Part shown: piece by piece, positions 28,825-54,034 of the stretch
How positions within the stretch are numbered: position 1 is the stretch's first letter
How the letters are laid out: each line of letters starts with the position of its first letter
NCBI GenBank assembly: GCA_016793465.1
Contig: JAEUJW010000053.1
Coordinates: 124,001 to 188,000 of the forward strand
Length of the DNA: 64,000 bases
Reading direction: 5' to 3'
Source: Myxococcales bacterium
GTDB lineage: Bacteria; Myxococcota; Polyangia; Nannocystales; Nannocystaceae
Position numbers and translations under genes: made by a program
The notes under the pieces: generated by a model
What the model was told of the DNA's origin: nothing
Seen by the model: the letters and a program-made list of their open reading frames with translations, nothing else
Databases searched by the model: none

Positions 28825-28899
28825 GGCGAATATAGCTCAGCTGGTTAGAGCGCTCGGTTGTGGTCCGAGAGGTCATGGGTTCGAATCCCATTATTCGCC
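28825..28899 (+). tRNA. tRNA-His (anticodon GTG)
   Basis: Acceptor GCGAATA/TATTCGC, D-arm GCTCAGCTGGTTAGAGC, anticodon stem CTCGG/CCGAG with loop TTGTGGT (anticodon GTG), and T-arm ATGGG-TTCGAAT-CCCAT all fit. The extra G at -1 (28825) paired with C73 (28899) is diagnostic of histidine tRNA. CCA is not encoded (CCG follows). Confidence 0.97.
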
Positions 28900-34781: not shown

Positions 34782-34907
34782 CCCCAGCGGCCCCTCCGGG
34801 TCCGCGGCCCTCGCTGCTCGACGAGCCGCTCCGCGTGAAGAACCTTCATTCTCGCCCGACTCTCCACGCGACTCGAGCGCGTGCTCCCTCTACGACGATC
34901 CCACGGC

Positions 34908-35201
34908 CGATCCACGACAAGCACGGACGGCGGGTACCCGTCCAGTCGGGTCGGAGATGTCGCGGCCAGCATGGCCGTGACATCCCGACGAGCGCACGAC
35001 CGCAACCCCCGAACGTCCGACCGCGGAGGAGCCGCCGTCCGGGCGCTTCACGAGGTCCGGCGTACCGCGGACCGGAGAGGGTGACGGCCGGACATGCGCA
35101 GCCGATGGTGCGCCACGAACATGGCGCGCCCTCGGCGAGCACTGGCCGGCCGTCACCCTCTCCGGTCCGCTGTGAGCGGAGTTCGGCCATTCGCAGGGCC
35201 C
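34908..35201 (+). repeat. Dispersed multi-hairpin repeat element, copy A
   Basis: Noncoding element with an inverted second copy at 42500-42786. It contains a hairpin GATGTCGCGGCC/GGCCGTGACATC (34956-34984) and a large hairpin with perfect 25-base arms (35067-35091 and 35146-35170) around a 54-base loop that itself folds (GCCGA/TCGGC, then GGTGCGCCA/TGGCGCGCC). The last conserved block is GCGGAGTTCGG..ATTCGCAGGGCC. It lies between the TPR protein and fghA. Confidence 0.9.
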
Positions 35202-41111: not shown

Positions 41112-42473
41112 ATGTCCGCCTATCGCCCGTTGTTCGTACTCGCCTGGCCGATCGTGCTGGCGCGCTCGGCCCAGGCCGCGATCGGCTTCGCCGACGCCGC
41201 GATGATCGCGAGCTTCGGCAAGGACGCGCTGGCCGCGACCACCACCGGCGCGCTCAACACCTTCGCCCTGTTCATCCTGCCGATGGGCCTCGTGTTCATC
41301 GTCCAGAGCTTCGCGGCCCAGCTGCTCGGCAAGGGCGACCTCGTGGGCGCCCGCCGCTACGCCTGGTACGGCCTGCTGATCGCGGCGCTCACCCAGGTGT
41401 TCGCGGTCGCGGCCTACCCGTTCATCGGCGACCTCCTCGCGCTCACCGACTTCACGCCCGAGGTCCGCGCGCTGATGACGACGTACATCAGCATCCGCCT
41501 GTTCGGCGCCGGCGCCACGGTCGCTACCGAGGCCCTCGGCGCGTGGTTCGGCGGCCTCGGCGACACCCGCATGTCGCTGCTGGCCAACGTGGTGGCGATG
41601 GTCGTCAACATCTTCCTCAACTGGGTGCTGATCTACGGCCACCTCGGGCTCCCCGCGCTCGGGGTCGAGGGCGCCGCGATCGCCTCGACGATCTCGGTGT
41701 GGGTCGGGTTCGTCGCCATCGCCGTGGTGTTCGCCCGCGGGTGGATGCCGCCCGGCGTCGCCCGCGTGCCCGTGCGCGCGCGCCTGCGCCTCGGCGAGTT
41801 CGTCCGCATGCTGCGCTTCGGCCTGCCGAGCGGGCTCAACTGGTTCCTCGAGTTCTCGGCCTTCCTCGTGTTCATCAACGTGGTGTTCGCCGGCCTCGGC
41901 ACGCTCGCCGTCGCGGCCATCATGTCGGTCTCGCAGGTCAACAGCATCTCGTTCATGCCCGCGTTCGGCCTGACCTCGGCCGGCGCCATCCTCGTCGGCC
42001 AGGCCATCGGCGCCAACGACCGCGACGCCGTGCCCGCCATCGTCCGCCGCACCGGCATCGTCTGCGCCACCTGGCAGGGGGTCGTCGCCCTGTTCTACGT
42101 CGCCATCCCCGCGACGATCATGGCCACCTTCGCCGAGGGCGACGTCGCCGTGTCCGAGCTCGTGCGCCTCGGCACCACCCTGCTCGCCATCTCGGCCGCC
42201 TGGCAGCTGTTCGACGCCCTCGTCATGACCCTCAGCGAGGCCCTGCGCGCCGCCGGCGACACCGCCTGGCCGCTGTGGGCCCGCATCATCGTCGCCTGGG
42301 TGGTCTGGCTGCCGCTCTCGGTCTACGTCGTCCGCTACAACGACGGCGGGCCGGTGGCCGCGACCCTCAGCTTGCTCCTCTACATGGTCGTGCTCGCCGG
42401 CGTGATCCTCTACCGCTTCCGCTCCGGGGCCTGGCGTCACATCGACCTCACCGGCCAGGGTCCTTCGCACTGA
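41112..42473 (+). CDS. MATE-family efflux transporter
   Basis: 453 residues with 12 hydrophobic helices in two homologous halves. MATE features: APxILARSAQAAIGFADAAMIA-like opening (LAWPIVLARSAQAAIGFADA), ALNTFALFILPMG, and in the second half FGLPSGLNWFLEFSAF and MSVSQVNSISFMPAFG. It exports drugs or metabolites coupled to Na+ or H+; the substrate is unknown. It lies 66 bp after pgi on the same strand and may share its transcript. The dispersed hairpin element copy B begins shortly after its stop. Confidence 0.93.
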   Translation: MSAYRPLFVLAWPIVLARSAQAAIGFADAAMIASFGKDALAATTTGALNTFALFILPMGLVFIVQSFAAQLLGKGDLVGARRYAWYGLLIAALTQVFAVAAYPFIGDLLALTDFTPEVRALMTTYISIRLFGAGATVATEALGAWFGGLGDTRMSLLANVVAMVVNIFLNWVLIYGHLGLPALGVEGAAIASTISVWVGFVAIAVVFARGWMPPGVARVPVRARLRLGEFVRMLRFGLPSGLNWFLEFSAFLVFINVVFAGLGTLAVAAIMSVSQVNSISFMPAFGLTSAGAILVGQAIGANDRDAVPAIVRRTGIVCATWQGVVALFYVAIPATIMATFAEGDVAVSELVRLGTTLLAISAAWQLFDALVMTLSEALRAAGDTAWPLWARIIVAWVVWLPLSVYVVRYNDGGPVAATLSLLLYMVVLAGVILYRFRSGAWRHIDLTGQGPSH

Positions 42474-42499: not shown

Positions 42500-42786
42500 A
42501 GGCCCTGCGAATTGCCGAACTCCGCTCACTGCGAACCGGGGAGGGTGAACGCCGGCCAGTGCTCGCCGAGGGCACGCCACTACGTGGCGCACCATCGGCT
42601 GCGCATGTCCGGCGTTCACCCTCCCCGGCCCGCCATACGCCAGACTTCGTGAAGCGCCCGGACGGCGGCGCGTCCGCGGTCCGAGGATGTGGGTCGAAGC
42701 GAGGCCCGAGTCGAAATGTCGCGGCCGGCCGCGACATTCTTCGACCCACCTGGAGGTGCATCCGCCGCCCGTGCTCTTCGTGGAGC
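42500..42786 (-). repeat. Dispersed multi-hairpin repeat element, copy B (inverted relative to copy A)
   Basis: Homologous to 34908-35201 in reverse orientation. Large hairpin with perfect 20-base arms at 42536-42555 and 42609-42628 and a 53-base loop. Second hairpin is a perfect 24-base palindrome (42715-42738) enclosed by 10-base outer arms (GTGGGTCGAA at 42689-42698, TTCGACCCAC at 42740-42749). Base changes relative to copy A keep the large stem paired. Confidence 0.9.
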
Positions 42787-42960
42787 GGCTGCGGGGCTGT
42801 CGGTGAGTGCGAGGCGACGATGTCGCGGCCGCGATCGGCCGCGGCATCCTCGCTGCGAGCGTCACGGAGTTTCGAGATGTCTGTGCGTGCAAGCGACGGG
42901 ATGTCGCGGCCCCATCGGCCGCGGCATATCCGTCTTGTCAGCGCTTCGTGAGTCCTTTGC
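42787..42960. repeat. Two further GATGTCGCGGCC hairpins next to copy B
   Basis: Arms GATGTCGCGGCC/GGCCGCGGCATC at 42819-42848 and again at 42900-42928. They repeat the smaller hairpin module of the dispersed element. No gene is seen between 42474 and 43039. Confidence 0.85.
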
Positions 42961-51427: not shown

Positions 51428-52756
51428 TCACCCGAGCCACGCGGGCAGCCGCTCGGCCGCGATCATCGCCTCGACGGATTGCCGCGGCCGCGTGAGCGCG
51501 AACTCGCGGCCGCGGACCAGCACCTCGGCGGCCAGCGGCCGCGTGTTGTAGTTCGAGGCCATGGCCATGCCGTAGGCCCCGGCGCCGAGCACCGCCAGCA
51601 GCTCGCCGGGCTCGGGCCAGGGCACCAGGCGGTCCTGGGCCAGGAAGTCGCCGCACTCGCACACCGGCCCGACCACGTCGGCCCGCACCGGCGCGCGCCG
51701 GGCCGCGGCCGCGTCGACCGGCACCACCGGGTGGAACGCCCCGTACAGCGCCGGACGGATGAGGTCGTTCATCGCCGCGTCGACGATCACGAAGCTGCGG
51801 TCCTGCCCTGTCTTCCTGCCGATGACCCGCGTGAGCAGCACGCCCGCGTTGCCGACGAGGAACCGACCTGGCTCCAAGACCAGGTCCATCTCGAGCGAGC
51901 GCGCCGCGTCGGTGACGGCCCGGCCGAACGCCGCCACGTCGAGCCCCACGTCGCGCCCGCCGTAGGCGATCCCGAGGCCGCCGCCGAGGTCGAGCGTCCG
52001 CGGGTGGACCCCGCGCGCGCGCAGGCGGAGGACCAGCGCGCGCACGCGCTGGGCGCTGGCGAGGAACGGCCCGGCCTCGGAGATCTGCGAGCCGATGTGG
52101 CAGGCCAGGCCGACCACCGTGAGCCCGGGCAGCGAGGCCGCGTGGACCGCGAGCTCCTCGGCCTCGGCCATCGCCACCCCGAACTTGCTCTCGCGCAGGC
52201 CGGTCGCCAGGTACGGGTGGGTGACCGGGTCGATGTCGGGGTTCACGCGCAGGGCCACCCGGGCGACCTGCCCGAGCGCGCGGGCGCGGCCCGCCACGCG
52301 GTCCAGCTCCTCGGCGGACTCGACGTTGATCGAGCGCACACCGGCGGCGATCGCGGCGTCGATCTCGAAGTCCTGCTTGCCGACCCCGCTGAAGACGATC
52401 TTCGCCGCCGGGATCCCGGCCGCCAGCGCCCGCGCCAGCTCGCCGCCCGAGACGATGTCCGCCCCGGCCCCGCGCGACCCCAGCGTGCGCAGCAGGGCCT
52501 GGCTGCTGTTGGCCTTGACCGCGTAGCACAGCAGCGTCGGGTGGCCGGCGCAGGCCTCGGCCAGCTCGTCGTAGCGCGCGCACACGTGCGCACTGCTGTA
52601 GACGTAGGTGGGCGTGCCGACCTCGGCGGCGATCGCCGGTAACGCGACGTCCTCGACGTGCAGGACCCCGTCGGCGAGGCGCACGCCGTGGCGTTCGGGC
52701 GCCGCGAACACGGCGGTGTGATCGGGCTCGGTCGGCGACTCGACGGCTGCGGCCAT
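51428..52756 (-). CDS. lysA: Diaminopimelate decarboxylase
   Basis: 442 residues. PLP Lys in YAVKANSSQALL (about 69), HIGSQISEAGPF, LDLGGGLGIAYGG, EPGRFLVGNAGVLLT, CECGDFLAQDR and GAYGMAMASNYN are the full set of LysA motifs. It makes L-lysine from meso-DAP, the last step of the DAP pathway, whose intermediate also feeds peptidoglycan. The frame stays open to 53116, but ATG52756 is chosen because the upstream part would run across the putative structured RNA region and lacks homology. The 3' end is 15 bp from the convergent lipoprotein gene. Confidence 0.96.
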   Translation of the reverse strand: MAAAVESPTEPDHTAVFAAPERHGVRLADGVLHVEDVALPAIAAEVGTPTYVYSSAHVCARYDELAEACAGHPTLLCYAVKANSSQALLRTLGSRGAGADIVSGGELARALAAGIPAAKIVFSGVGKQDFEIDAAIAAGVRSINVESAEELDRVAGRARALGQVARVALRVNPDIDPVTHPYLATGLRESKFGVAMAEAEELAVHAASLPGLTVVGLACHIGSQISEAGPFLASAQRVRALVLRLRARGVHPRTLDLGGGLGIAYGGRDVGLDVAAFGRAVTDAARSLEMDLVLEPGRFLVGNAGVLLTRVIGRKTGQDRSFVIVDAAMNDLIRPALYGAFHPVVPVDAAAARRAPVRADVVGPVCECGDFLAQDRLVPWPEPGELLAVLGAGAYGMAMASNYNTRPLAAEVLVRGREFALTRPRQSVEAMIAAERLPAWLG

Positions 52757-52841
52757 GCGACGGTGCTGCCACGCGGGTGACGTGCCTGTCAAACGAAGCC
52801 GCGCCCGCGTCGCGGGTCCGATCGGACGGCCGCGCCGGCTT

Positions 52842-52870
52842 TTGCCGGCCAGATCGGGCTCTGCTAGGAT
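52842..52870 (+). promoter_or_regulatory. Sigma70-type promoter of the structured RNA
   Basis: -35 TTGCCG (52842-52847), exactly 17 bases, -10 TAGGAT (52865-52870). The predicted start near 52876-52877 coincides with the first base of the closing helix of the RNA. Confidence 0.7.
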
Positions 52871-52909
52871 CGCCGGGTCACTTCGGGCCACCGGCTCAAG
52901 GAGGTAAGG

Positions 52910-52990
52910 ATGAAACAAGCAGACGATCGTGCGTGCACTGTCAGCTTTCAACCTCGCTGGTCCCCCGATCCCGGAGGTATCCAGCCCTAG
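52910..52990 (+). CDS. 26-residue open reading frame inside the structured RNA
   Basis: ATG52910 is preceded by AAGGAGGT (52898-52905), an exact anti-16S match at ideal spacing, and the frame ends with TAG at 52988. The peptide begins MKQADDRACTVS and ends FQPRWSPDPGGIQP. A proline as last residue, a Trp and a GI pair at Trp+6 resemble features of ribosome-arrest peptides (TnaC, SecM), but that is only an analogy. It could be a short regulatory or signalling peptide, or the Shine-Dalgarno could serve RNA folding instead. No homologue is known to me. Confidence 0.5.
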   Translation: MKQADDRACTVSFQPRWSPDPGGIQP

Positions 52991-53280
52991 CCGGGGGCCT
53001 TCGGGGTCGACGCACCGTCGGTCCCGCGGGTCGCAAGGTTCGCTGTTTCGGGTGACGTCGGCCTGCCGGGCCGCGCACCGCTCCACCGGCCCGCTCCGCG
53101 GGCACCCCCGAGGCAACTGCAGCCAGGTTGCCTTTCGCTCGAGAGGTCAGGCTGGCTCCTGACCACCGGCCCGAACGGGCCGCGGCCACATGTCGTGGCA
53201 GGGTCGCTCCCGCGACCTCATGGACCACCTGTCGGGCCAAAAAGCCCGCAACAGAAACCGGCGAAGCGCTCGAAGTGACC

Positions 53281-53320
53281 GCGGCGGAGCACGATGTTGT
53301 GCTCCGCCGCTTGCGTCTCT
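53281..53320 (+). terminator. Terminator hairpin of the structured RNA (12-bp stem)
   Basis: GCGGCGGAGCAC (53281-53292), loop GATGTT, GTGCTCCGCCGC (53299-53310), then TTGCGTCTCT. A second hairpin CCGCGGGCG/CGCCCGCGG lies at 53325-53351, near the 3' end of ribA on the other strand. Confidence 0.75.
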
Positions 53321-53381
53321 CGCGCCGCGGGCGTGCGGGCCGCGCCCGCGGGACGTCGACGCCCGACCGCCGCTCAGCGCG

Positions 53382-54014
53382 TCACAGCAGGTGCCCGGAC
53401 TTGTCGCGTTTGGTCGCGAGGTACCCGCGGTTCTCCTCGCGGGCCGGGGCGATGATCGCGGCCCGGCTGTGCACCTCGACGCCGCCGGCGCGCAGGCCCT
53501 CGATCTTGCGGGTGTTGTTGGTGTGCAGCTCGACCGAGCCCACGCCGAGCGCGCGCAGCATCGCCGCCGCGGCCGAGTAGTCGCGCAGGTCGTCGTCGAA
53601 GCCGAGGTGGTGGTTGGCCTCGACGGTGTCGAGCCCGTCCTGCTGCAGCTCGTAGGCGCGGACCTTCTGGGCGATGCCGATGCCGCGCCCCTCCTGCCGC
53701 AGGTACAGGATGATGCCCCGCTCGAGCTTGCGGAAGCGATCGAGCGCCAGCTCGAGCTGGTCGCGGCAGTCGCAGCGGAACGAGCCGAACACGTCGCCGG
53801 TCAGGCACTCCGAGTGCACGCGGGTCGGCACGTCGTCGGCGCCGGCGACGTCGCCGCGGACGATCGCCACGTCGTCGAGCGTGCGCCCGGCCTCGTCGAT
53901 GAACGACACGATCTCGAACTCGCCGTGGCGCGACGGCAGGCGCGCCCGCGCGAACACGCGGACCTGCCGCAGCACCCGCGGCGGTCGTCCGGTCAGCGCG
54001 TGCGGGATCGGCAC
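53382..54014 (-). CDS. ribA: GTP cyclohydrolase II
   Basis: 210 residues. The zinc ligands lie in ECLTGDVFGSFRCDCR (Cys about 69, 80, 82), followed by YLRQEGRGIGIAQKVRAYELQ-type motif, GLDTVEANHHLGF and LHTNNTRKIEGLRAGG. It opens GTP to 2,5-diamino-6-ribosylamino-pyrimidinone phosphate, the first committed step to riboflavin. It is a stand-alone RibA without a DHBP-synthase domain. GTG54014 has AGGAG 9 bases upstream; the longer open frame is a shadow of the fic gene. It follows the Fic-like gene after 20 bp, so both may be in one transcript. Confidence 0.96.
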   Translation of the reverse strand: MPIPHALTGRPPRVLRQVRVFARARLPSRHGEFEIVSFIDEAGRTLDDVAIVRGDVAGADDVPTRVHSECLTGDVFGSFRCDCRDQLELALDRFRKLERGIILYLRQEGRGIGIAQKVRAYELQQDGLDTVEANHHLGFDDDLRDYSAAAAMLRALGVGSVELHTNNTRKIEGLRAGGVEVHSRAAIIAPAREENRGYLATKRDKSGHLL

Positions 54015-54034
54015 CGGGGTCGTCTCCTGTCCGG

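Follow-up and report, generated by a model that had tools for sequence, protein, structure and literature searches.

RNAIII of Staphylococcus aureus is 514 nt in length and contains 14 stem-loops, three of them C-rich, with an ORF of 26 residues lying in H3-H5 and with H14 as the terminator, according to the passages of the two papers on which we draw (PMC8383071; PMC2837412). VcdRP is an sRNA that also contains a short ORF, in this case of 29 aa (excerpt of PMC8672173). ROOL, GOLLD and OLE are large, highly structured RNA species with kissing loops; in the extract of PMC12286853 used here the ROOL example is 659 nt long and many GOLLD RNAs exceed 800 nt, and both are encoded by phages or prophages. 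In myxobacteria there is the regulatory RNA Pxr, which arose within the suborder Cystobacterineae (extract of PMC11928866); one paper on Pxr was among the matches listed for myxobacterial regulatory RNA in the open-licence literature. In the icaR mRNA the two ends of the transcript pair, with the 3′ UTR binding the Shine-Dalgarno region (passages cited from PMC3868564).

We have analyzed a stretch of 64,000 nucleotides from a Myxococcales bacterium of the family Nannocystaceae, which we call the window and which has a GC content of 73%; this value, the kinases and the gene content suggest a myxobacterium-like organism. The gap of 625 nt between lysA and ribA, with a Fic-domain gene adjoining ribA, shows the following features together with its two flanking genes.

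51428-52756, − strand: lysA (diaminopimelate decarboxylase; PF02784 and PF00278), the divergent neighbor
52842-52870, + strand: promoter-like TTGCCG-N17-TAGGAT, with TTGCCG at 52842, TAGGAT at 52865 and TGC before the −10 (extended −10)
52876-52888, + strand: 5′ strand of the closing helix P1, GGTCACTTCGGGC, at the predicted transcription start; pair probability 1.0
52891-52994, + strand: predicted domain I, closed by CCGGCT/AGCCGG (52891-52896/52989-52994); mean pair probability 0.89, with the same helix in the MFE fold
52898-52905, + strand: Shine-Dalgarno sequence AAGGAGGT, followed by AAGG-ATG (whole element 52898-52912) with a spacing of 4 nt
52910-52990, + strand: ORF MKQADDRACTVSFQPRWSPDPGGIQP, 26 codons and 81 nt, with the stop codon TAG at 52988-52990
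52996-53032, + strand: predicted hairpin domain II, with 11 bp (53002-53012/53016-53026) atop a 5-bp stem
53039-53265, + strand: domain III, with TTCGCTGTTTC/GAAACCGGCGAA as its tentative closing helix (pair probability 0.75-0.84) and about eight hairpins inside
53111-53164, + strand: two neighboring hairpins of the predicted fold with complementary loops, AGCCAG (53121-53126) and CTGGCT (53152-53157)
53268-53280, + strand: 3′ strand of P1, pairing with 52876-52888
53281-53310, + strand: end hairpin of 13 bp (12 perfect pairs and one G-T), the probable 3′ end, with a poor T tract
53382-54020, − strand: ribA (GTP cyclohydrolase II domain; PF00925), the convergent neighbor, start approximate

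The region would best be explained as an RNA gene of its own, lying between lysA and ribA and read from the + strand. RNA polymerase would start at about 52876, just past TAGGAT, and the transcript of approximately 435 nt would end in or just past the hairpin at 53281-53310. Pairing of its ends in P1 should protect the RNA from nucleases and make it stable, and would enclose three domains: the 5′ domain holds the ribosome-binding site and ORF, the second is a lone hairpin, and the third groups about eight hairpins and includes two loops that could pair with each other. The RNA would most likely be regulatory, with other mRNAs or a protein as the targets of its exposed loops, and the 26-residue peptide would probably also be made, giving a dual-function RNA. 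For this full account, a free-standing regulatory RNA that is closed at its ends, acts through its loops and is probably also translated, we infer transcription, the ends, translation and action in trans, and we hold it tentatively, at somewhat less than an even chance. Leaving translation aside, we regard it as likely that the region is transcribed into a structured RNA.

The first-pass annotation had proposed an undescribed structured RNA at this place. This is partly supported and is the best-supported reading, given the promoter-like site at P1, the dense hairpins and the lack of a match with Rfam or ARAGORN, but its purely non-coding view missed the ribosome-binding site. Both the Shine-Dalgarno sequence with its start codon and the complementary loop pair had been overlooked.

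RNAIII has the nearest published layout that we found, and we note a likeness of layout with no claim of kinship. As far as the cited passages describe it, RNAIII has in common with the putative RNA its many stem-loops, a 26-residue ORF, a 3′ hairpin and C-rich loops. The C-rich loops here are UCCC at 53208-53211 and UCC at 53095-53097; such loops are expected in GC-rich sequence. In contrast to that of RNAIII, the peptide does not by eye resemble a membrane-active helix. VcdRP, likened by description only from the excerpt, has the same combination of sRNA and short ORF, whereas the feature stressed here is the closed 5′/3′ helix. Kissing loops in a large, highly structured RNA, as described for ROOL, GOLLD and OLE, are also proposed for the present RNA, but this is shorter, at approximately 435 nt, and has no Rfam match. 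Pxr is likewise a regulatory RNA from myxobacteria, again likened by description only. As in the passages cited for icaR, pairing between the two transcript ends is proposed, but here P1 lies upstream of the Shine-Dalgarno sequence.

A significant closing helix and a unique ribosome-binding site

P1 comprises 13 bp including one G-U, and is predicted with a mean pair probability of 1.0. The first and last 15 nt form a duplex of −24.1 kcal/mol. When the 405-nt body was shuffled 2000 times with its dinucleotide composition kept, no duplex as stable was obtained (mean −8.3 kcal/mol, minimum −23.7 kcal/mol), and the 13-bp helix pairing the two ends that had been noted from the sequence is thus borne out.

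The 5′ strand of P1 begins 6 nt past the −10 element, so that the predicted start does fall on the first base of the helix, as the first-pass annotation had stated. Counting both strands, the window has four TTGNNN-N16-18-TANNNT sites including that at 52842-52870, and this alone has TGN before the −10. The promoter had been given correctly as to its sequence, positions and 17-nt spacer, but the site is absent from the list produced by a stricter sigma-70 promoter scan. At the other end of the region, the end hairpin starts at the base right after the 3′ strand of P1. It had been called a 12-bp terminator hairpin. The hairpin is indeed present, but TTGCGTCTCTC directly 3′ of it contains only two T, making a poor terminator tail, and a terminator scan did not list it. 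A long-range 10-bp helix followed directly by a 10-bp hairpin is found once on the two window strands compared with seven times in 80 shuffled strands; by itself this layout is uncommon and not decisive. The chance of the whole layout, with a promoter-like site aligned with helix and hairpin, should be much lower.

Both the ribosome-binding site and the ORF lie within domain I. Nowhere else in the window, on either strand, is an 8-base Shine-Dalgarno sequence followed by a start codon as AAGGAGGT is. The duplex of AAGGAGGT with the tail of the rRNA has a predicted energy of −12.6 kcal/mol. On shuffling the RNA, an 8-base Shine-Dalgarno sequence with a start was obtained in 15 of 20000 cases and some 6-base version with a start in 266 of 5000; these counts, like those for loop pairing and hairpin density below, are descriptive, the tests having been picked after the feature was seen. 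A short ORF and a ribosome-binding site within a structured RNA, the combination by which a dual-function RNA is recognized, are thus both found in the sequence and predicted fold.

The first codons of the ORF are A-rich, as is common at translation starts. GC3 in the ORF is 54%, compared with 92-98% in lysA, ribA and fic, and so codon usage provides no argument for a long-established protein. In the predicted fold the T and G of the ATG (two of its three bases) and part of the Shine-Dalgarno sequence are paired. A 19-mer at this site recurs in two viral contigs. In L095 it stands immediately ahead of the ATG that opens an ORF of 51 aa, itself a short distance past another ORF, and this speaks for the dual-function account; in L094 it falls within a longer ORF, which speaks against it. 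On direct reading the peptide is polar and has no membrane segment. Its last residue before the stop is Pro, with Trp nine residues earlier (52958-52990), a layout that we take to resemble that of arrest peptides such as TnaC.

Alternatively, this free-standing structured RNA might be purely non-coding, regulatory or protein-binding, with the Shine-Dalgarno sequence and ATG either fortuitous or a structural motif. P1, the hairpins and the promoter-like site would be equally well explained. The low GC3, unlike that of the neighboring genes, the mostly paired ATG and the frequency of the looser Shine-Dalgarno with start in shuffled RNA are all consistent with such an RNA, whereas the full 8-base site with good spacing, rare in shuffled RNA and unique in the window, argues against it. 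We consider a purely non-coding RNA to be rather unlikely.

Predicted domains, folding controls and strand

Nine local hairpins with perfect stems of 5 or more and loops of 3-9 occur between 53008 and 53248, in keeping with the earlier count of at least eight strong ones. When stems of 6 or more are required, no other 150 nt of the window hold as many hairpins as this region, which has five; the maxima in 10 shuffled windows were three to four. Counted per 450 nt there are eight, a number equalled by one of 10 shuffles. The closing helix of domain III can be regarded only as tentative because it is no better than its control, a helix as good being found in 50 of 60 shuffles.

The hairpins at 53111-53133 and 53145-53164 are predicted with probabilities of 0.64 and 0.67 respectively. 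Their loops are perfectly complementary over 6 nt, which was reached in 36 of 20000 loop shuffles for any pair of loops, and in 19 of 20000 for neighbors. In the MFE fold the same six bases pair inside one nested longer hairpin, and with this alternative AGCCAG and CTGGCT might form either kissing loops or a two-state switch.

Folding of the whole region gave z = −4.48 for the + strand and −3.84 for the − strand. In 150-nt segments (30 shuffles) the folding signal is located at 53120-53390, with best z values of −4.94 (+) and −3.82 (−) at 53180, while those that start at 52940, 53000 or 53060 do not stand out on either strand (z of −0.71 to 0.04). When 435-nt segments were used (25 shuffles each), the region gave z = −5.15 (+) and −5.51 (−), against a mean of −0.88 and a standard deviation of 1.37 for 98 other segment strands of the window. 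The lowest values in that set were −6.74 and −5.24 at 42341, where the segment overlaps a palindromic inverted-repeat region. Two of six other intergenic gaps score as low or lower (z = −8.02 and −6.20), and both contain the palindromic inverted repeat. The z-scores are therefore not strand-specific, and a low z is no proof of an RNA in this window because palindromic intergenic gaps score as low. What sets the region apart is not z but P1, together with its promoter-like and ribosome-binding sites.

These values bear on the possibility that there is no RNA gene on the + strand, and that the region is a palindrome-rich intergenic DNA element or a leader of lysA on the − strand, folding by virtue of its composition. 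The z-scores of the − strand, −3.84 overall and in the second test −5.51 compared with −5.15 for the + strand, are consistent with this, as are the two other gaps with palindromic repeats that fold equally well or better. The first-pass annotation had argued that the region is opposite in strand to both neighbors and so is not their leader; this holds for the + strand, but on the − strand the region lies upstream of lysA. Four observations point the other way. The region has no other copy in the window, the longest match being 22 nt. The G-U pair of P1 on the + strand would be a mismatch on the − strand. Rfam revealed no leader or lysine riboswitch on either strand. Finally, a terminator-like site on the − strand (52815-52799) separates the region from lysA, where 0.4 such sites would be expected by chance. 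An element of DNA or a lysA leader is an unlikely explanation.

The terminator-like site (52799-52815, − strand) is the only one listed in 52700-53450. Close to it there is a perfect TTGACA at 52787-52792 on the − strand, approximately 30 bases upstream of the lysA start, with no good −10 seen by eye. Judged from this hexamer, lysA may have its own promoter there.

The transcript could alternatively be a small mRNA for the 26-residue peptide, with the structured 3′ part and the 5′/3′ helix controlling its translation and stability. An ORF with its ribosome-binding site toward the 5′ end, a long structured 3′ part and pairing of the ends would all suit such an mRNA, and icaR provides a precedent for control by 5′/3′ UTR pairing in the passages cited (PMC3868564). 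However, approximately 290 nt of RNA beyond an ORF of 81 nt is a great deal, and in the predicted fold P1 leaves the Shine-Dalgarno sequence itself uncovered. Type I toxins usually have a membrane segment, and the peptide is polar and lacks one. We regard a simple mRNA as distinctly improbable, and return to the free-standing regulatory RNA, probably also translated.

No known RNA family matches the region

A search of the whole window with the 4227 families of Rfam 15 at gathering scores returned only tRNA-His, at 28826-28899. With E values of up to 10 the region itself gave five weak matches (E = 0.17-5.7), sbcD, Xoo2 twice and two miRNA families, all far below the cut-off; the best was sbcD with 19.4 bits (cut-off 40), and Xoo2 scored 17.7 (cut-off 45). 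This search had been proposed beforehand, and the lack of a family at threshold is consistent with an undescribed RNA. Both strands were scanned with Rfam for a lysine riboswitch or other lysA leader, with no match.

Using permissive filters over 52780-53400, RNase P RNA gave no family match up to E = 10. The 6S RNA covariance model was without a match up to the same value, and RF00023 was absent at E up to 10; ARAGORN found one tRNA-His in the window and no tmRNA. The covariance models and ARAGORN thus agree with the earlier statement that the conserved blocks of RNase P, tmRNA and 6S are absent. A very divergent member of one of these housekeeping families would have an end-closing helix, a size and hairpins such as we find, and ACAGAAACCGGC, which immediately precedes the 3′ strand of P1, resembles the RNase P 3′ conserved block as judged by eye. 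Against this stand the failure of all the family searches and, for RNase P, the pairing of most of ACAGAAACCGGC with 53039-53049 in the predicted fold, a pairing that did not itself beat the control. Such an RNA is very improbable.

An ordinary protein gene was sought in three overlapping frames, the third of which includes the 26-aa ORF. A search of limited sensitivity through approximately 5.8 billion proteins gave no homologue at E up to 1, and the region is therefore probably no ordinary gene. A decayed or amber-interrupted gene, whose frame continues past the TAG through 95 sense codons until it meets a TGA at 53276-53278 inside the 3′ strand of P1, is also very unlikely, since GC3 after the TAG is only 72% against 92-98% in the neighboring genes, the read-through frame has no homologue at E up to 1, and by a rough estimate an open frame of such length is not rare at this GC content.

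Other candidates were also rejected. A tandem-repeat element was discarded, as was a dispersed repeat within the window (longest other match 22 nt); for a retron, a Pfam scan of 27 window ORFs revealed no reverse transcriptase.

Relatives were sought through the neighboring genes and by direct comparison. Among the best 80 of 589 confirmed loci found with LysA, none was titled Myxococcota; the titles were of Proteobacteria, Nitrospira, Desulfo- groups and others of this sort, and a few loci had only a broad name (delta proteobacterium, Proteobacteria, bacterium). The window's FtsW was matched in 45 of the 47 genomes searched from those 80 loci with an identity of 47% at best, and so probably none of the 47 is a near relative. 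The Fic neighbor reached an identity of 32% at best in the phylum of G002 (5 of 20 genomes) and 31% in one of 12 further genomes. When the region was compared with 59 genomes of the phylum of G001, matches of 24-45 nt only were obtained, in six of the 59. Nothing related to the region was found in viral contigs, plasmids or phages, and the best stretches shared with the pattern matches L094-L096 were of 19-21 nt only. Among the matches listed in the open-licence literature, none described an RNA of this kind from myxobacteria.

We conclude that the RNA is probably new, which does not imply membership in a new class. More ambitiously, it may be the first example, from a GC-rich, myxobacterium-like lineage, of a new class of large structured RNA: its hairpins would form a closed cluster with internal kissing loops, the same molecule would serve as mRNA for a 26-residue peptide, and the ORF would have its own domain, so that ribosomes and structure control each other. 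This larger proposal we think doubtful. If transcribed and conserved, a large structured RNA, possibly coding in part, would be added to the myxobacteria.

Other repeats in the window

The palindromic inverted repeat present in the gaps with strong folding scores is unrelated to the RNA region between lysA and ribA. Its copies at 34900-35200 and 42501-42795 align over 302 nt with 81% identity and flank a segment of approximately 7.3 kb. At the core is a palindrome of approximately 110 nt in which the copies differ at paired positions, with TGACGGCCGG/CCGGCCGTCA in one and TGAACGCCGG/CCGGCGTTCA in the other. This suggests that the hairpin itself has been kept. A plasmid search with 35030-35200 gave no match. 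Four short palindromes starting ATGTCGCGGCC (for example GATGTCGCGGCCGCGATCGGCCGCGGCATC) are found at 34957, 42716, 42820 and 42901, inside or beside the inverted repeat, and by their sequence form a REP-like family.
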